Origin: Rhodobacterales bacterium
GTDB taxonomy: Bacteria > Pseudomonadota > Alphaproteobacteria > Caulobacterales > Hyphomonadaceae
DNA length: 60,903 nt
Assembly: GCA_014763715.1 (NCBI GenBank)
Contig: JACXUV010000023.1
Span: forward strand, 1 to 60,903
Direction of reading: 5' to 3'
The translations under genes and the position numbers were made by a program. Below, piece by piece: positions 26,786-45,915 of the stretch. Under the pieces are notes generated by a model. The model did not search any database, was not told the origin of the DNA, and saw only the letters and a program-made list of their open reading frames with translations. Positions within the stretch are counted from its first letter, which is position 1. Every line of letters starts with the position of its first letter.

Positions 26786-27952
26786 TCAGACGGGCAGAAG
26801 GTGAGCTTCTGCTTCGTCCCGGTGCTTCTTCAGGTATTTCATGAATGGCGTGCCACCCGTACCGACATCGGGATCGTTTCCGCTGCCGCCTTTGGACTGC
26901 TTGTTGATGTAACTGGCTGCGTATTCAAGGTGACGCGTCCGGAAACGTGCAAGCTTTGACACGTTTTCATTATAGAGGGTTTTCAGCTCGGCATCGCCAG
27001 AACCTTCCACAAAGCCGCGCACCTTGCTGGCAGCTCGCACATCCTCGATCAGTCTGCGGTGCGTGGGCGGACGATATGCGTGCAACTCATCAAGAAAGCT
27101 TCGCAACGGGTCAGCGGCATGGCCCACGCTCAGCAAGGCATCCATCGTTGGCACGATGGACGATTGCGATCCCGTTTGCCCACGGAATGCCTGAGGAGCA
27201 CCACCCGTCTCTTCGACGCCTTCATAGACAAGACCGCCGCCCAGGGCCGGATTATCTTTCCAGCCATGGATCCACGGCCGCACCCGGTGGAAATAGCAAT
27301 AGGGATCGCATCGCTCAGGCATACGGTCGAAGATCGCGTTCACGTCGTCCCAGACCCCGGACATGACGGACAGGCAGCGCGCAGCCTCACTGGCGTTGCC
27401 CGCATCGGCTGCACTGATCAGGTTCAGGGCTTCCTCAAGCATTTCGCCGGCCCGGGCCTCAATCGCGACATGGACGAGGATGAACCATGCCTCGTCCATG
27501 CCGCCGTCGAAGTGCTGGAGGACTCGCACATTCGACAAGTCGATTGGCCCGGAAGAATCGATCAGGGCCCAGTTCTCCAATGTGTAGGAAGAGTAGGGGA
27601 GCAAGGGCGGCTGACCGAGGCTCTTGCCGAGTTGCCAGATCGGAATGGCCAGGCACGCGGGCAAAGCCTTCGGAGCCTCCGGCTCGCCCCAGACATAGGT
27701 CTGCACCATGAAAGAATAGTGCAGCATCGCGATGCGCTGCTCGGCCTCGCTGGCGGTTGCGCAGAAATCGGTGAGGTCAATCACCGGTAACCTTTCCAGC
27801 AAGGCCCGCACGCGGCCGGTGCAGATCAATTGAGGGATGGACAGCGCCATCTCCCGGGCCGGTTTCAGAGGGTAGGGCAATTCCACCTTTTCCGGATCAA
27901 AAGACGCAAGGAATCCTCTCTCACGGGACAACCCGTAGTCCGAAAGTCTCAT
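26786..27952 (-). CDS. Indoleamine 2,3-dioxygenase-like haem protein
   Basis: A 388-residue member of the IDO family, haem dioxygenases opening the indole ring of tryptophan to N-formylkynurenine. Evidence: the GQTGSQSSIVPTMDALLSVG segment (family: RGGSGAQSS-P-D-LLGI) and a candidate proximal haem His in RFRTRHLEYAASYI, plus the overall length. I start at ATG 27950-27952, with GGAGG upstream. No kynureninase or arylformamidase is next to it, so tryptophan degradation is not shown; bacterial IDO-like proteins can have poor tryptophan affinity. It faces the Cys-rich lipoprotein gene tail to tail. Confidence 0.85.
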   Translation of the reverse strand: MRLSDYGLSRERGFLASFDPEKVELPYPLKPAREMALSIPQLICTGRVRALLERLPVIDLTDFCATASEAEQRIAMLHYSFMVQTYVWGEPEAPKALPACLAIPIWQLGKSLGQPPLLPYSSYTLENWALIDSSGPIDLSNVRVLQHFDGGMDEAWFILVHVAIEARAGEMLEEALNLISAADAGNASEAARCLSVMSGVWDDVNAIFDRMPERCDPYCYFHRVRPWIHGWKDNPALGGGLVYEGVEETGGAPQAFRGQTGSQSSIVPTMDALLSVGHAADPLRSFLDELHAYRPPTHRRLIEDVRAASKVRGFVEGSGDAELKTLYNENVSKLARFRTRHLEYAASYINKQSKGGSGNDPDVGTGGTPFMKYLKKHRDEAEAHLLPV

Positions 27953-28083
27953 TTGGCGCTCCTCCCAGAGCAATTATTTTCATTTGTAACTAATTTCTAT
28001 GGGAGGTTCGTACGTAACGTCAATTACCCATTCAGCTCTTCTGACGGGGCAGCTTCATGAAGAGGAGAACGTGCCGGCGCGTC

Positions 28084-37337: not shown

Positions 37338-37901
37338 ATGGATCTCTATGACAGTCGCAGGGCGATCAGCGACTTCCTGTTCGTAAAATCCCAACCGGAA
37401 CAAGTCGATCTCGCATTTGTTTTCTGCAGCCCGACAATCAGCAGCCTCCATCCAGCCATCTCCCTCTACAAGGCAGGGCTGGCTCCGAGAATCCTGATTT
37501 CCGGGGGCGGCCCATCCATTGATGGGGCCCCCGAATGGAGCCTCTATCGTGCGCATGCGCTTGCCTCCGGGGTCTCGGAAGATGCTCTCCTGCTTGAAAA
37601 AGCGGCCAGCAATACCGCGGAGAATGCGGCTTTAGGGGCCGCACTCATTTCATCAGAACTAGGCTGGGAAAGCATCCGGAGTTTGGCCGTCTGCGCCAAG
37701 CCCTTTCACATGCGCCGCGCGATCATGACCCTGCGAAAGCACATTCCAGAGGATGTGATGTTGATCGCTCAGCCTACGGACGATCCTGGCGACATCTCTG
37801 CCGAGACATGGTGGCAAACGGCGAGAGGACGCAAGCGCATATACACTGAACTTGGGAAGATCAGCGACTATGCGCTGAAGGGAGACCTCGGTGATGTCTG
37901 A
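37338..37901 (+). CDS. DUF218 (YdcF/SanA-like) cytoplasmic protein
   Basis: A 187-residue DUF218-domain protein: AFVFCSPT strand, then LYKAGLAPRILISGGG, and the family motif LLEKAASNTAENA followed by VCAKPFHMRRAIMTLR. Unlike SanA or ElyC it has no membrane helix or signal, so it resembles E. coli YdcF. DUF218 proteins of enterobacteria (SanA, ElyC) affect envelope integrity and cell-wall precursor supply, but the chemistry is unproven. The start ATG 37338 has a weak ribosome site. The next gene begins eight bases before its stop, so the pair is translationally coupled. Confidence 0.85.
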   Translation: MDLYDSRRAISDFLFVKSQPEQVDLAFVFCSPTISSLHPAISLYKAGLAPRILISGGGPSIDGAPEWSLYRAHALASGVSEDALLLEKAASNTAENAALGAALISSELGWESIRSLAVCAKPFHMRRAIMTLRKHIPEDVMLIAQPTDDPGDISAETWWQTARGRKRIYTELGKISDYALKGDLGDV

Positions 37902-40900
37902 CCTTGGCCAGCAGCACCTGATCGGTATCGGCGGAAGCGGGATGTTGCCTCTGGCGCTCTTGCTCAAACAGGCGGGGCATTCCGTTACCGGTAGCGATAA
38001 CCTTTGCGCGCCTGAACGTCTTGCCATGCTTCAGGATCATGGGGTTTCCGCGTTTCCCGGGAGTGATCCTGAACTAGTGAAGCGTGCCGATTGTGTCGTG
38101 GTGAGCCCCGCAATTCCTGAAATGCACGCGGAAAAGCGTGCGGCACGGCGCGCCGGAATACCGATCAAGACGCGTGCCGAGGTCCTGGCCGAGATAATCG
38201 ACGGCCGGCCCAATGTCTGCGTCGCCGGCAGTCATGGGAAATCGACCACGACGGCGATGCTTATCCATATCCTGAACAAGGCTGGCCCGCCTGATTTTGG
38301 CTACATGCTGGGCGCCAGCTTCACCACTTCAGATATGGCGCCCTCGCGACTAGGAGCGCACGGAGCACCTTTTGTGACGGAGGCCTGCGAAGCACACGGC
38401 GCTCTGGCATGCTGGCAGCCTACACACGCCATCCTTACCAATCTCGATAATGATCACGCAGATCATTATGATGGGCAGGCCGGACTGCAGAAGGGTTTTG
38501 CATCCTTCCTTGCGCGCCTGCCGAAGGATGGGCTGGCAATTGTATGTGGGGATGATCCGTATACAATGAAAATCCTGAGCGAGGTCAGTTGCGAAATTCT
38601 CACTTACGGTTTCGGCGAAGGGAACCAGTTGCGTGCGGTTCCGTATGGGGATGGCGAATTTTCTATTGTCCTGAGCGGTGCTGAGTTAGGGGTGCTCTCT
38701 CTGGCCGTTCCTGGACGTCACAATGTTCTCAATGCTTTAGCCGCTCTGGGCATGGCGCTTCGTCTGGGTGTCGCGCTTCAGGACGCAGCAGACGCACTGG
38801 CCGACTTCAACGGAATTGAGCGCCGTCTGCAGCGCATTCCCACAGATGGCTCTTGGCGCATTTTCGATGACTTCGCCCATCACCCGTCCGAAATAACAGC
38901 TTCGCTGTGCGCTCTGCGCGATACGACGAAAGGGCGGCTGATCGCGATCCTTGAGCCGCAACTGCACAGCAGGGTCGCGCGCCTAGCCTTGCCTATAGCG
39001 CAGGCATTAAGCGAAGCGGACCTCAGCTTCATCCTACCGGTAACGGCACACGGGGAAACCAGCAAGCAGATGGATGGTGATGCTGCGCTGGCAGATGCCT
39101 GCCGGTCTATGGTGCTTTCCACCTATCATGTCGCGGACCAGGCCGAACTATTACGTCTATTGAACGGCGAGGTGAGGGAAGACGACACGCTCGTCGTTAT
39201 GGCGGGAGGAGATGGCGCAGGTATCGCACAGCGGATCTCCAGGGATTTGTTGCGGCTGGAAAGTTGTGCACCCAGCATTCTCCTAGGGGACAGCCGACCG
39301 GAACCACCTGATCTTCTGGCTCTCGTTGCCAGGCATGCTGAAAGCCATCCTAATGCGCCTGCCGTCGAAATGGGGCATCGCTATCTCAGTTATGCTGAAC
39401 TGCTCCAAAGGGCGGATGATCTTGTCACAATGCTTGCAAATGCCGGTGTCACAGCCGGTGACCCCGTGGGGGTCTGTCTCAACCGTACCGTCGACCGCGT
39501 GACATCCTTCCTCGCAATTCTGCGGCTTGGCGGCATCTTCGTGCCTCTGGATCCGGCCTTGCCGCACGAGAGGCTGCGCTACATGCTGGAAAATGCAGGT
39601 GCACGAACGGTTGTCGTAAATGCGTCGAGCCCGGCCTTGCCGGATATGGGGCTTGCCTTTGTCAATTGCGGCCGCCTTCCGGAACGCGCCGAAAACGCCG
39701 AAATCAAATGGGATCAGACGGCAAGAGCGGCAGATGCGCTTGCTTATATGATCTTCACGTCCGGCACGACGGGGCACCCGAAGGCGGTCGAAATCTCGCG
39801 TGGTGCACTTGCCAACTACTCGGTTGCAGCATCCCGGCACTTCCAGATCACTTCAGCTTCACGCGTTTCGCAAATCAGCGGCTTCGGATTCGATGTCTCT
39901 GTGGGGGATATGGTGATGGCCCTCGCGGCAGGGGCCTGCCTTGTTTACCCAACTGACCTGCAGTCGACCCCCGGGCCTCCGGTTAGCCGCTTTATTGCAC
40001 AGGCCCAGCTGACACATCTGTCTCTTACGCCCTCCGCGCTGGCCGTTGTTCCGTCTGATGAGCACCCGCAGCTTTCCCACGTTATTGTGGCGGGAGAAGC
40101 ATGTCCGCCTGCCTTGGTGGAGCGATGGGGAAGGGGGCGCTGCTTTATCAATGCCTACGGCCCGACAGAGGCCACTGTCGAAGCTCTTTTTGCGCGTTGC
40201 ATTCTTGGGGCACCCGTAACAATCGGAAGACCGATCGACAATATGGGAGCATGCCTGCTGGACGCCCAATTGGAGGTCGTAGCACCGGGCGAGGAAGGCG
40301 AACTCTGCCTGTTCGGGGCCGGCCTCGCCAAGGGATATCGCCACTTACCCGAATTGACCGATCAGCAGTTCCCATGGGTGGAGATACCCGGCCATGGCAT
40401 GGTCCGCATCTATCGTACCGGAGATCGTGCGAAGGCCGGACCAGATGGCAACTTTATTTATCTGGGGCGTATGGACAGCCAGTTGAAGCTCAAGGGCTAC
40501 CGTATCGAAGCTGGAGAAGTCGAAGCGACCCTATGCAGCCTGCCGAGCGTGGTAGACGCTGCTGTATCACTTGTCTCTTCCGACCACCATCCAGACCGCC
40601 TCGTCGCGCATGTGGTGATGACATCAGACGCTCAGCCCCCGGATCCTGTTAAGATTCGGGAGCAACTGCTGGAACAGTTACCATCTTATATGGTGCCTTC
40701 GGTTTTTCTTCCTGTTCCTCAGATACCCCGTAATGCCAATGGGAAGCGCGATAGAAGCGCATTACCTGTGCCGCCTCAACTGACACAGGCACCCATGGCG
40801 CGCGCTATCGGGACACCAACCGAAGCAAGGCTCATGGCCTTGGTAGATGAGCATGTGGGTGCCAATGCCATTGCAGGTACGCGAGACAGTCTACGCGAAG

Positions 40901-41748
40901 CCGGCTTAGACTCGCTCGCAATGGCCAACCTTCTTTTTGCGATTGAAGACACTTTCAACATCACGCTCGATGTCGGCTTCGAGACAGGTTTTGACACCGT
41001 CGAAGTCCTGGCCCTGATGGTGGATTCCCAAAGCAAGGAACAAAAAGTAGTTTCAACACCCGATCTTGAGGAAACACTGGCCGCGCAAATCAATCCCTAC
41101 CTTGCAACGTGGCCCGGCAAGAAACTTGGCAGGGCCGGATTGGTTAGGAGTTTGGATGAAGACCATTCTCGGCCCAAGCTATTCTGGTGTTTCCAGGGTG
41201 GGCAAGAGCTTCAGCAGCTGAGCAATAACCTTAGCCATTCGGTATCGGTGTTTGGGCTGCGATCGGGTCACCTTGCCGTTGAATACAATGACGAGACCCT
41301 CAGCGCGCTAGGCAAACTCTATGCTGACGAGATCGCCACTATTGCTCCTTCCGGGAATTTGTTTCTGGGGGGGAACTGCCAAGGCGGGCTTGTGATGCTC
41401 CACGCGGGACTGGAACTCTTGCGCAGGGGCCGTGACATCCCCTTGACCATCCTCATGGAGCAGGGGCGCTTCCCCCACTATCCAGGTAAAACACTGCTGC
41501 TCTTCGGAGCGGGCAGCTATCTCAACCCCTATGGGCAGATCGCCTCACCCGAGGAATTGTTCCGTACAGCCTACCCGGCAGGCCACCATGTCGATATCAT
41601 CCCGGGTGCCCACGGACGCTATTTCCAGCCTGAGAATGTCGATGCCCTTGCGGCAACAATCCTTCGCCATATCAATCGCCATAGCAACGTGGGCAGGGCC
41701 GTACCGGACTTGCTTAGTCACGGGCAGGAGCTGGTCGAACCATCATAA
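37894..41748 (+). CDS. Mur ligase - NRPS adenylation - carrier - thioesterase fusion
   Basis: A single 1284-residue open frame. Residues 1-455: complete three-domain MurC/Mpl-type ligase, with GIGGSGM (11-17), ATP loop AGSHGKSTTT (111-120), TNLDNDHADHY (182-192), GIERRLQ (307-313) and DDFAHHPSEI (325-334). Residues 470-960: NRPS adenylation domain with A3 MIFTSGTTGHPK (619-630), A4 FDVS with amino-group Asp667, A5 NAYGPTEATV (753-762), A7 YRTGD (840-844), A8 LKLKGYRIEAGEVE (864-877), A10 Lys951. Residues 970-1045: carrier with phosphopantetheine Ser1007 in GLDSL. Residues 1095-1262: thioesterase with Cys1162 (GNCQGG) and His1240. No condensation domain. ATG 37894 follows GGGAG. Inference: it activates an amino acid and joins it to a muramyl or similar acceptor. 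Needs a phosphopantetheinyl transferase from elsewhere. Confidence 0.92.
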   Translation: MSDLGQQHLIGIGGSGMLPLALLLKQAGHSVTGSDNLCAPERLAMLQDHGVSAFPGSDPELVKRADCVVVSPAIPEMHAEKRAARRAGIPIKTRAEVLAEIIDGRPNVCVAGSHGKSTTTAMLIHILNKAGPPDFGYMLGASFTTSDMAPSRLGAHGAPFVTEACEAHGALACWQPTHAILTNLDNDHADHYDGQAGLQKGFASFLARLPKDGLAIVCGDDPYTMKILSEVSCEILTYGFGEGNQLRAVPYGDGEFSIVLSGAELGVLSLAVPGRHNVLNALAALGMALRLGVALQDAADALADFNGIERRLQRIPTDGSWRIFDDFAHHPSEITASLCALRDTTKGRLIAILEPQLHSRVARLALPIAQALSEADLSFILPVTAHGETSKQMDGDAALADACRSMVLSTYHVADQAELLRLLNGEVREDDTLVVMAGGDGAGIAQRISRDLLRLESCAPSILLGDSRPEPPDLLALVARHAESHPNAPAVEMGHRYLSYAELLQRADDLVTMLANAGVTAGDPVGVCLNRTVDRVTSFLAILRLGGIFVPLDPALPHERLRYMLENAGARTVVVNASSPALPDMGLAFVNCGRLPERAENAEIKWDQTARAADALAYMIFTSGTTGHPKAVEISRGALANYSVAASRHFQITSASRVSQISGFGFDVSVGDMVMALAAGACLVYPTDLQSTPGPPVSRFIAQAQLTHLSLTPSALAVVPSDEHPQLSHVIVAGEACPPALVERWGRGRCFINAYGPTEATVEALFARCILGAPVTIGRPIDNMGACLLDAQLEVVAPGEEGELCLFGAGLAKGYRHLPELTDQQFPWVEIPGHGMVRIYRTGDRAKAGPDGNFIYLGRMDSQLKLKGYRIEAGEVEATLCSLPSVVDAAVSLVSSDHHPDRLVAHVVMTSDAQPPDPVKIREQLLEQLPSYMVPSVFLPVPQIPRNANGKRDRSALPVPPQLTQAPMARAIGTPTEARLMALVDEHVGANAIAGTRDSLREAGLDSLAMANLLFAIEDTFNITLDVGFETGFDTVEVLALMVDSQSKEQKVVSTPDLEETLAAQINPYLATWPGKKLGRAGLVRSLDEDHSRPKLFWCFQGGQELQQLSNNLSHSVSVFGLRSGHLAVEYNDETLSALGKLYADEIATIAPSGNLFLGGNCQGGLVMLHAGLELLRRGRDIPLTILMEQGRFPHYPGKTLLLFGAGSYLNPYGQIASPEELFRTAYPAGHHVDIIPGAHGRYFQPENVDALAATILRHINRHSNVGRAVPDLLSHGQELVEPS

Positions 41749-42947: not shown

Positions 42948-43036
42948 TTTGGAAGGCCCCACCAATCCTGCCGCAAGGACAGTCTGGTATTTCCAACCAA
43001 CGTGGCAAAAACTGATTGTTCAAAGGGAGGCACAGG

Positions 43037-43831
43037 ATGCAACAGGCACACGATTTTCTTGAGGAAAGCCGGGCACTTCACACGCTGCTGACAGAACGGA
43101 CGGATCAGGACTTTGACCGGGTTACCCTGTTCAAGGATTGGACGATCAATGATGTCCTGCGCCATTTGCACTACTGGAACTGGATGGCTGAACTGCAACT
43201 CAGCGGTGAAGGCCGCCTTGAAGACGAACTCGCATCCGTTGGTGTGGAAGGCATGCGAACGCGTGAACAGGCGCATGTCGCTGGCGCTGGCGGGCAAACG
43301 CTGCTGGCAAGCTGGTGGGAGCAGGCTCTGAAAACGGCGCAGATATTTACCACAGCCGATCCCAAAGCGCGCCTGAAATGGGTTGGTCCCTCGATGAGTG
43401 CGCGCTCATCCATTACGGCACGCCTTATGGAGACGTGGGCGCACGGGCAGGAAGTCTATGATGTGCTCGGCGTTGAACGGAAGGATGAAGATCGCATCCG
43501 CAACATCGCCGTACTGGGTGTGAACACTTATGGATGGACCTATCTGGTACGGAAGCAGGAGCCGCCCGGGCCCATGCCTTTCGTGAAGCTGACAGCCCCC
43601 TCGGGTGAGGTTTGGAGCTTCGGTGAAGATGATGCCTCAAATTGCATTGAGGGAAGCGCATCCGAATTCTGTCAGGTCGTCACGCAGACCAGGAATGTCA
43701 AAGATACCTCCCTGGCTGTCATCGGCCCGGTTGCTACAGACTGGATGTCCAAGGCGCAGTGCTTTGCGGGTGGCCGGAACGATCCGCCTGAACCCGGCAC
43801 GCGCTTCCGGGCGGGCACTGCCAGTACCTGA
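43037..43831 (+). CDS. DinB/MDMPI-fold protein, TIGR03084-like
   Basis: A 264-residue protein of the DinB-like four-helix family, closest by eye to TIGR03084 proteins (mycothiol-dependent maleylpyruvate isomerase N-terminal fold). Metal-ligand candidates are the His in DVLRHLHYWNW and in METWAHGQEVYD. Alphaproteobacteria lack mycothiol, so the cofactor must differ; no activity is known to me. ATG 43037 follows GGGAGG. It precedes a crotonase and a CoA-transferase, so a role in acyl-CoA metabolism is conceivable. Confidence 0.75.
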   Translation: MQQAHDFLEESRALHTLLTERTDQDFDRVTLFKDWTINDVLRHLHYWNWMAELQLSGEGRLEDELASVGVEGMRTREQAHVAGAGGQTLLASWWEQALKTAQIFTTADPKARLKWVGPSMSARSSITARLMETWAHGQEVYDVLGVERKDEDRIRNIAVLGVNTYGWTYLVRKQEPPGPMPFVKLTAPSGEVWSFGEDDASNCIEGSASEFCQVVTQTRNVKDTSLAVIGPVATDWMSKAQCFAGGRNDPPEPGTRFRAGTAST

Positions 43832-44715: not shown

Positions 44716-45915
44716 CTACTTCACGATACCATCAGCATAGAGCGCCTCGATCTCGGTTTCTGGCAGGCCAAGGCCATCCAGTACGGCGCGCGTATGCTCT
44801 CCCAGCTTCGGTGATGGCCCTTTCGGGCCGTCATCGGCGCCAGGAAACCGCACCGGAGAGGCGGGTGAGGGAAAAGTTGACCCATCGCCTTTGCTGCTCG
44901 GCACCTGAACGATAGCGCCAGCGGCTTCAGTTTGAGGGTCTTTAACGACCTCCGCCAACGTCTGAACCGGCGCCCAGGCAATGGAATGCGCGTCGAGACG
45001 CTCGGAAATTTCAGCCTTGGTGTACTTCGCAAAACCGGCATCAATAATGTCGACCAACTCAGCACCATTCTGACGGCGCGCCTTGGAGCTGGTAAAACGC
45101 GGGTCTTCCATAAGATCTTCGCGACCGATCACCTTGCACATCGGTACCCAGTCCACATCGCCCTGACGCTGGACAATGCATACCCAGTGATCATCTCTGG
45201 TCTTGAAGAAGTTGGTCATGGGCACATTCTGCTCATGCCGGCTCTTGGTAGAGGCAACGCGATTGAAGAACAGCTGGATCGCGAAATCTGAGCCGAGGGC
45301 GTAGAGGCCCGCGCGGAAGAGGGAAGACTCCACAAGGCGCCCTTTGCCGGTGCGGGTTGCTTCCACCAGTGCAGCGCAAATACCCGCTGCCGTCGCCATG
45401 GACGTCGTATGGTCACCAAACGCGGTCCGCAGTGCGAAGGGTTCCTGACCTTTTGGCACGGTCAACGCCCCAACGCCTGTGCGGCTCCAGAAGCTGGCGA
45501 CGTCAAAGCCCGGCCGGTCCGCGTCAGGCCCCTCAAGACCGTATCCGGTGAGGGAGCAGTAAACGAGCTTCGGGTTGATCTTGCTAAGCTCTTCGTAGCT
45601 GAGGCCAGAACGTTCCAGCCCGCCGGGCCGGACATTGGTCAGAAACACGTCCGCCTCTTCAACCATTTTGCGAAGAAGTTTCTGCCCCTCGGGTTTCGAC
45701 GTGTCGATCGCGATGGACTTCTTGCCGCGATTGTCAAAGTCGAAGACCGGATTGTCCTGAATGTCTGTGCCGAGGGTACGGAAGAAAATTCGGATCGGGT
45801 CACCCCCGGGGGGTTCGACTTTGACAACCTCTGCGCCCCAGTCACTCAGGATCGATCCTGCACCAGGTGCAGCCATATAGGTTGCGTATTCGATGACCTT
45901 GATGCCCTCGAGCAT
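44716..45915 (-). CDS. CaiB/BaiF family (class III) CoA-transferase
   Basis: A 399-residue class III CoA-transferase. It opens MLEGIKVIEYATYMAAPGAG and has DWGAEVVKVEPPGGDPIR and LTNVRPGGLERSGL; the catalytic Asp probably lies in GYGLEGPDADRPGFDVASFW. These enzymes move CoA between carboxylic acids; the actual substrate is unknown. Its ATG has GGAGG upstream. The neighbouring crotonase suggests degradation of a carboxylic or steroid-like acid. Confidence 0.9.
   Translation of the reverse strand: MLEGIKVIEYATYMAAPGAGSILSDWGAEVVKVEPPGGDPIRIFFRTLGTDIQDNPVFDFDNRGKKSIAIDTSKPEGQKLLRKMVEEADVFLTNVRPGGLERSGLSYEELSKINPKLVYCSLTGYGLEGPDADRPGFDVASFWSRTGVGALTVPKGQEPFALRTAFGDHTTSMATAAGICAALVEATRTGKGRLVESSLFRAGLYALGSDFAIQLFFNRVASTKSRHEQNVPMTNFFKTRDDHWVCIVQRQGDVDWVPMCKVIGREDLMEDPRFTSSKARRQNGAELVDIIDAGFAKYTKAEISERLDAHSIAWAPVQTLAEVVKDPQTEAAGAIVQVPSSKGDGSTFPSPASPVRFPGADDGPKGPSPKLGEHTRAVLDGLGLPETEIEALYADGIVK

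Follow-up and report, generated by a model that had tools for sequence, protein, structure and literature searches.

We report on a gene within a 60,903-nucleotide stretch of DNA (hereafter the window: contig JACXUV010000023.1, positions 1 to 60,903, GenBank assembly GCA_014763715.1) from a Rhodobacterales bacterium placed by GTDB in the Hyphomonadaceae. The gene encodes one protein in which a Mur ligase is joined to a single module of a nonribosomal peptide synthetase (NRPS)—consisting of adenylation (A), carrier (T) and thioesterase (TE) domains—and it lies between a DUF218 gene and a gene for a NagZ-like glycoside hydrolase of family 3 (GH3). Coordinates are collected in Table 1.

That a single 1284-residue frame holds both a Mur ligase and an A-T-TE module had been claimed in an earlier, sequence-only reading of this DNA, and was confirmed by a Pfam domain scan, which placed three Mur domains, an adenylation domain, a carrier and a thioesterase in that order. 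Both halves also co-occur across genomes and are not confined elsewhere to separate proteins: when proteins of ~706–2247 residues were searched with the Mur half, 97 of the 120 best matches listed (window protein included, with 24 further matches beyond those listed) carried both Mur and AMP-binding domains. Because so many matches carry both halves, one of them from Paracoccus aminophilus JCM 7686, on its complete plasmid pAMI4 (L011), the fusion is not an assembly join. We therefore reject an assembly or frame error joining two genes as having a negligible probability, given 96 fused relatives besides the window protein, the intact plasmid copy and a base composition that is even across the Mur/A junction, although a short near-identical variant (P0121) and a protein from Rhodobacter capsulatus (P0122) end in an apparent other reading frame.

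Conservation was assessed on an alignment of 92 of the 97 listed fusions, leaving out the partial sequences P0005, P0028, P0058, P0079 and P0090. All catalytic residues counted in both halves—K116, S/T117, E163, E166, H188, R311, D326 and H329 in the Mur part, D667 and K951 in the A domain, S1007 in the carrier, C1162 and H1240 in the TE—were present in 88 of the 92, and two of the remaining four showed only a gap at the P-loop. The linker between Mur and A domains (the 446–479 segment) spans 32–45 residues in 84 of the 92. Database names of the relatives cover one half each (‘amino acid adenylation domain-containing protein’ or ‘UDP-N-acetylmuramate--L-alanine ligase’).

Table 1 Features of the fusion gene and its cassette, with positions in the window
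Feature	Positions	Strand	Basis
DUF218 (YdcF-type) protein, 187 aa	37338..37901	+	PF02698 E 2e-16 (longer frame from 37197)
Mur ligase-A-T-TE fusion, 1284 aa	37894..41748	+	One intact frame
Mur N-terminal (nucleotide-sugar) domain, residues 8-103	37915..38202	+	PF01225
Mur middle (ATPase) domain, residues 110-288; P-loop K116, E163, E166, H188	38221..38757	+	PF08245
Mur C-terminal (amine-binding) domain, residues 310-437	38821..39204	+	PF02875
Adenylation domain, residues 479-951	39328..40746	+	PF00501/PF13193; TIGR01733
Carrier (T, or peptidyl carrier protein) domain, residues 986-1038, phosphopantetheine Ser1007	40849..41007	+	PF00550
Predicted lidless Cys-type thioesterase, residues 1050-1284	41041..41745	+	AlphaFold2 model, fold matches, residue counts
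TE Cys1162	41377-41379	+	Putative nucleophile
TE His1240	41611-41613	+	Residue counts
NagZ-like GH3 hydrolase, 398 aa	41751..42947	+	PF00933 E 1.6e-49; two-base gap after fusion stop codon

The fusion family is rare and patchy. Named sources include Parvibaculum, Paracoccus, Sinirhodobacter, Cypionkella, Asticcacaulis, Pararhodobacter, Neotabrizicola and Falsigemmobacter, with partial fusions among the listed matches from Xinfangfangia and a Lysobacterales genome. The TE query matched just two of 385 genomes of the class, that of the window and G184; in the latter the contig start truncates the synthetase, the front part of which is not Mur-like and by eye resembles the end of a condensation domain. 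The query found no match in G183 and G728, two genomes of the window’s own genus. With a TE profile, matches came from 4 of 398 genomes of the phylum, 12 of 394 in one family and 5 of 248 in another. Among the loci of these two families, a Mur domain was present in G881, G937, G1039 and G696 and absent from G1193, G1085, G1020, G1001, G1239, G1177 and G1401; matches in G714, G955, G1040, G1274, G1349 and G1448 are not part of this tally. One of 149 genomes matched in the family of an Asticcacaulis metagenome-assembled genome (MAG), and a contig scan gave one fusion (L007) plus an unrelated A-domain match (L008). The fusion gene has a G+C content at third codon positions (GC3) of 0.60, against 0.75 for the neighbouring guaA, and this low value, the patchy distribution and the plasmid copy together suggest horizontal spread.

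A second Mur-half search, this time of proteins with 250–796 residues, added further partial fusions (P0005, P0123, P0124, P0128), shortened or out-of-frame relatives (P0121, P0122, P0125, P0127) and one protein with an Mpl-like end (P0126); past this fusion kin, identity among the matches listed drops to 32–41%, to MurC-type proteins. Scoring in the two Mur-half searches was confined to the candidates with the most words in common, 7994 and 7999 of them, and each listed its best 120. The halves were not seen as a pair of separate genes in these protein listings, for which the DNA behind matches such as P0122 was not inspected. P0122 (572 aa) has an intact Mur part followed by an unrelated Arg/Pro/Ala-rich tail, so that the fusion appears disrupted in R. 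capsulatus; relatives have intact copies. Three of the fusions (P0048, P0057, P0059) carry ~450 extra C-terminal residues; in P0048, the only one scanned, the extension had no Pfam match and looks glycosyltransferase-like by eye alone.

Domain properties of the fusion protein

The N-terminal half had been called a MurC/Mpl ligase. The part of that claim that stands is the presence of a full Mur ligase; it is not a plain MurC or Mpl. The window protein reaches 321.2 bits on the MurC NCBIfam model (TIGR01082; cut-off 335.1) and 172.4 bits on the Mpl model (TIGR01081), far below the cut-off of 388.7. P0036 (275.3), P0044 (283.1), P0084 (323.6) and P0094 (331.0) also fall below the MurC cut-off, which is passed by P0067 (402.3) and P0103 (358.0), two of the seven fusions tested, window protein included. 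Trees compared the fusions with MurC, Mpl, fused MurCs and a second alphaproteobacterial MurC paralogue, using 36 of the 92 aligned fusions in the first Mur tree and the TE tree and 32 in a rebuilt Mur tree from which the MurG-MurC proteins P0108 and P0109 were left out. In the rebuilt tree, four standalone-length kin join the fusions in a group of their own outside the MurC clade, with support of 100/100. Model scores and trees thus reject an ordinary MurC or Mpl misread as novel.

Three of the four standalone-length proteins inside the fusion clade (P0122, P0125, P0127) appear shortened or out of frame past the Mur part. The fourth, P0126 (455 residues), combines the first two Mur domains of the fusion clade with an Mpl-like C-terminal domain and is either a natural recombinant or an assembly chimera. 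The second MurC paralogue, unlinked and found in two alphaproteobacteria (L095 8552-10105 and L096 8494-9891, minus strand), has a GTSGKS P-loop, EVDESDG and QPHGFG; in the tree it branches separately from MurC, Mpl and the fusions alike. The window’s genome encodes four more Mur-type ligases, grouped on a different contig, one of which (L097) falls in the MurC clade; a model search of this genome found no Mpl above cut-off, the best Mpl score being that of the fusion itself (175.9 vs 388.7).

The ATP and metal residues of the Mur part are intact in every aligned member that covers them (K116, E163, E166 and H188 being invariant where aligned). The GIGGxGM UDP-binding loop is kept, as is Asp35 in 88 of the 92 fusions (the other four having gaps). 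The amine site differs. In Haemophilus influenzae MurC, the incoming amino acid is believed to be held by His376, Arg377, Arg380, Tyr346 and His348 (PMC3060825). Their counterparts in the fusions are Gln356 (91/92), Leu/Met357 (92/92), Arg360 (90/92), Phe327 (83/92) and His329 (92/92), and the window protein keeps two of the five (R360, H329). Replacement of H376/R377 by Q and L/M with retention of the second Arg would fit an amino acid with a masked carboxylate. The idea that loss of the Arg proves a carrier-bound acceptor was weakened by standalone MurC-like proteins that also have Leu at the R377 position (P0130, P0132, P0134, P0136), the strong MurC P0132 among them; the H-to-Q change alone seems special to the fusion clade among the rows compared. 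These four standalone proteins carry EACEA(Y/F) (EADEAF in P0136) and QPHL(Y/F)(S/T)R, motifs intermediate between MurC and the fusion clade, and may be where the fused Mur domain came from, or else a form of MurC not yet recognised.

Intact A motifs and a phosphopantetheine Ser had also been claimed, and both hold up. Core motifs A2–A8 and A10 were found in the window protein, which passes the adenylation model TIGR01733 (363.7 bits vs a cut-off of 317.4), and D667, K951 and the carrier Ser are each present in 92 of 92 fusions; by comparison with GrsA, we take D667 to be the Asp holding the α-amino group. The specificity residues, motif-mapped to positions that we assume to follow GrsA numbering, read DVGLIAAVEK in the window protein and in 26 of the 92 fusions; this code had no match in the literature searched. 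Fifty more fusions have a related code (starting DVG, DIG, DTG or DVA) and the other 16 a strongly different one, such as DAHGNGIMIK in five. Because the codes differ between clades, different fusions probably use different amino acids, and variation of the A code alongside constant Mur and TE motifs is as expected for a fixed acid combined with a changing amino acid. For carrier activation, the genome offers two phosphopantetheinyl transferase candidates: a 238-residue frame on contig C30, Sfp-like by length, and an AcpS-sized one.

The description of the C-terminal domain as a ‘standard’ release thioesterase did not survive, for it has a Cys at the nucleophile position and, in the model, almost no lid. 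A search by sequence against solved structures gave no match for the TE, and its fold is taken from a predicted model: a confident AlphaFold2 model and fold matches make it an α/β-hydrolase C-terminal to the carrier. The nucleophile position is Cys, followed by Gln, in 92 of 92 fusions, and the spacing Cys-27-acid position-51-His is kept in 91. The third catalytic residue may be either Glu1189 after β6 (E in 86/92, D in 4/92) or Asn1211 after β7 (92/92); in SulM and ObiF an Asp is placed after β7 (PMC11298585). Between model strands 134–138 and 150–155, the β6–β7 lid stretch has 11 residues and no helix, against lid loops of 54–101 residues in solved NRPS thioesterases (PMC11298585). An open Cys-thioesterase of this predicted kind would be well suited to large substrates and perhaps to passing the chain on to an amine.

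Gene cassette and relatives with a condensation domain

Seven loci with a Mur fusion were read: the window, L011 (pAMI4), L007 (Asticcacaulis MAG), L050, L051, L052 and L055. A DUF218 gene lies directly upstream of the fusion in all seven. In the window it is the first cassette gene, its start chosen by match to the pAMI4 homologue (72% identity), and its end runs 8 bases into the fusion gene, an overlap identical to that in pAMI4. DUF218 is itself fused in eight listed proteins (P0078, P0079, P0082–P0086, P0089), ahead of the Mur domain in P0084. A GH3 gene directly follows the fusion in four of the six loci with the downstream side present (window, L011, L050, L052); the L051 fusion is followed by a gene for a transposase-type integrase near the contig end. 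The four GH3 proteins share a KHFPG(H/Q)G....DSH loop, which we take to be typical of NagZ and which reads KHFPGHG-DSH in the window. The window GH3 carries this NagZ-type motif and scores 158.7 bits on the NagZ model (cut-off 207); the genome has one other GH3 gene. The Escherichia coli DUF218 members SanA and ElyC affect peptidoglycan (PMC12176290).

No further shared gene, exporter or tailoring gene was noticed around the loci, whose flanks are only partly annotated. Downstream of the cassette, the window encodes a TIGR03084 mycothiol-isomerase-like protein (43016-43831, +) and a family III CoA-transferase (44716-45915, -), neither of which is among the annotated pAMI4 neighbours. Further upstream lies a gene for an indoleamine 2,3-dioxygenase family protein (26786-27973, -; PF01231 E 7.9e-85), a family that is to our knowledge unusual in bacteria.

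Relatives that have this TE and lack a Mur domain show what else can stand at its place. Pfam recognised a condensation domain ahead of the A domain in four of the seven scanned (L049, L053, L054, L058), and gave no family match in L063. The A domain starts at residue 456–486 in these four, against 479 in the fusion; Mur ligase and condensation domain therefore occupy the same place. The condensation family PF00668 had no match in the window fusion, which has its Mur domains there. Among 67 matches of a database search with the TE part, 60 (window protein included) had a Mur domain and two a condensation domain. Scans of the neighbours at the Mur-less L049, L053, L056 and L061 found no shared theme.

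Other synthetases with this TE were also seen. The C-A-T-TE synthetase of L049 (5809-16710), with the same Cys-TE, has a glycosyltransferase gene following it and a polysaccharide pyruvyl transferase gene nearby. The Asticcacaulis MAG that carries a fusion encodes a second synthetase with this TE (L023, 8660-12433), which by eye has a condensation domain (HHLVIDG) and adjoins TonB-receptor-like genes. P0249 combines this TE type with sulfotransferase domains (PF13469, PF00685).

Proposed reaction and its alternatives

Our preferred reading, held tentatively at a little under an even chance, treats the fusion as a peptide synthetase of one module whose condensation domain has given way to the Mur ligase, which would join a muramic-type acid to an α-amino acid sitting on the carrier. 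The sequence-only reading had offered UDP-MurNAc, a muropeptide or an entirely different acid as the partner of the amino acid; of these we favour an acid of muramic type. The A domain would activate the α-amino acid and load it onto the carrier arm, and the Mur domain, with ATP, would phosphorylate a muramic-type carboxylate—most simply that of UDP-N-acetylmuramic acid (UDP-MurNAc)—to an acyl phosphate. The amino group of the carrier-bound aminoacyl thioester would then attack this acyl phosphate in the Mur domain, and the lidless Cys-thioesterase would take the acyl chain for release to water or transfer to an amine. DUF218 and the NagZ-like GH3 may also work on this cell-wall-type sugar, either ahead of the coupling or following it. 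In favour of this reading are the catalytic residues retained for every step, the condensation domain found at this place in relatives, the altered amine site, the retained GIGGxGM loop and Asp35, the constant DUF218 neighbour, the separate set of Mur ligases and the Sfp-like candidate elsewhere in the genome, and an A code that varies while the Mur and TE motifs do not. More generally, though we would not go so far as to call it probable, a Mur ligase may serve as a condensation-equivalent amide-forming NRPS domain, with a soluble nucleotide-sugar acid as donor, a carrier-bound aminoacyl group as acceptor and muramoyl-amino acids as a new product class.

Several points weigh against this coupling. 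Loss of R377 is not diagnostic: the site reads QPHLYTR in the standalone P0132 (510.5 bits on the MurC model) and QPHTYSR in two MurC-MurB fusions, P0102 and P0113. The counterpart of His70, which contacts uracil in MurC, is not conserved among fusions, so that a UDP-sugar is not certain as the substrate, and the substrate of the A domain cannot be named from its specificity code. P0067 and P0070 are without His at the 1240 position in the alignment, and no GH3 gene was found beside the fusion in two of the six loci (L051, L055). Some A-T-TE proteins have neither Mur nor condensation domain (two in L056; P0243–P0245). The TE tree gives no supported clade uniting the Mur type and does not set it cleanly apart from the rest, a topology with which a single origin of the Mur type is still compatible.

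Unlikely, but deserving serious weight, is a scheme of two consecutive separate reactions, in which the Mur part, working like MurC, attaches a free amino acid to UDP-MurNAc, and A-T-TE then activates and transfers another amino acid through its Cys-TE to that product or to some other amine. The passing MurC scores of P0067 and P0103 agree with this, and the A-T-TE proteins without partner domains imply that this half can work alone; the amine-site residues unlike those of MurC speak against it, and the conserved fusion with its fairly constant Mur-A linker suggests cooperation between the halves.

We likewise judge it improbable, on about the same footing, that the acid is not muramic at all. 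The Mur part would then have been recruited to a different carboxylic acid, be it a peptide or some other nucleotide-sugar acid, in a cassette that makes an unrelated secondary metabolite. The patchy distribution, plasmid copy and low GC3 would suit such a history, as would the variable uracil-contact position and a branch distinct from MurC. Set against these are the retained GIGGxGM loop and Asp35 and a cassette that points to murein, through the NagZ-type loop of its GH3 and through DUF218 (compare SanA and ElyC; PMC12176290).

Under a decidedly improbable third alternative, the product would become part of peptidoglycan and protect the wall, either by changing the first stem residue or by capping the muramic acid. 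That Mur, GH3 and DUF218 share one cassette favours this, as does the lack of any shared exporter or tailoring gene noticed in the partly annotated flanks. However, four Mur ligases, MurC included, are already encoded elsewhere in the genome, on a separate contig; a UDP-linked precursor needs no thioesterase release; and since the TE query did not match the same-genus G183 and G728, the cassette is dispensable in the genus.

Comparison with known systems

No description of a MurC-NRPS fusion had been known to the sequence-only reading, and we found none of a Mur ligase-NRPS fusion among the best 10–20 titles of each search aimed at it, judged by title and abstract start in literature that largely excluded subscription papers; as far as we found, Mur ligation and thiotemplate synthesis have not previously been described in one polypeptide. 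A MurB-MurC fusion has been described (PMC4803751), and a Mur ligase gene has been found beside a cyclodipeptide synthase gene, not fused to it (PMC2922099). Mur ligation and thiotemplate synthesis are two of the best-studied ATP-driven routes to amide bonds. If the Mur ligase does replace a condensation domain, NRPS logic would be wider, with an acyl donor drawn from primary cell-wall metabolism as an acyl phosphate, and muramoyl-amino acid products would link the peptidoglycan precursor pool to thiotemplate chemistry. The small cassette, its presence on the plasmid of a named strain and the clade-varying A code would then predict a family of new muramic-type metabolites or wall modifications.

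With MurC (UDP-N-acetylmuramate:L-alanine ligase, TIGR01082), the fusion shares three Mur domains, the P-loop, the metal and ATP residues and a MurC-like N-terminal domain, and the closest solved relatives of its Mur part are the MurC structures 6cau and 1gqq. It differs in forming its own clade, in having Q-L for H-R in the amine site and EACEA for EADES, and in being joined to A-T-TE as an additional copy in a genome with a normal MurC. With Mpl (murein peptide ligase, TIGR01081) it shares the DDFAHHP motif and a neighbour of murein-recycling type, the NagZ-like GH3; it is without EPRSNT, groups separately and scores far below the Mpl cut-off. MurC-Ddl, MurC-MurB and MurG-MurC, also present, judging from Pfam domains, among the Mur-half matches listed, are likewise Mur ligases fused to a second enzyme, but their partners are peptidoglycan-precursor enzymes and include no peptide synthetase module.

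The TE of ObiF1 (obafluorin) presumably uses a Cys nucleophile, as the fusion TE is predicted to do. The sulfazecin enzyme SulM, whose TE was among the fold matches, shares a Cys nucleophile in its NRPS-terminal TE (PMC11298585). Solved NRPS thioesterases have a lid, whereas the fusion TE is nearly lidless in the model. Closest in overall layout are the single-module C-A-T-TE synthetases, encoded on a plasmid of Rhodobacter sp. CZR27 (L049) and in L053, L054 and L058: these have the same A-T-TE chassis, with TE identities of ~35–42% to the query, and carry a condensation domain where the fusion has its Mur ligase.

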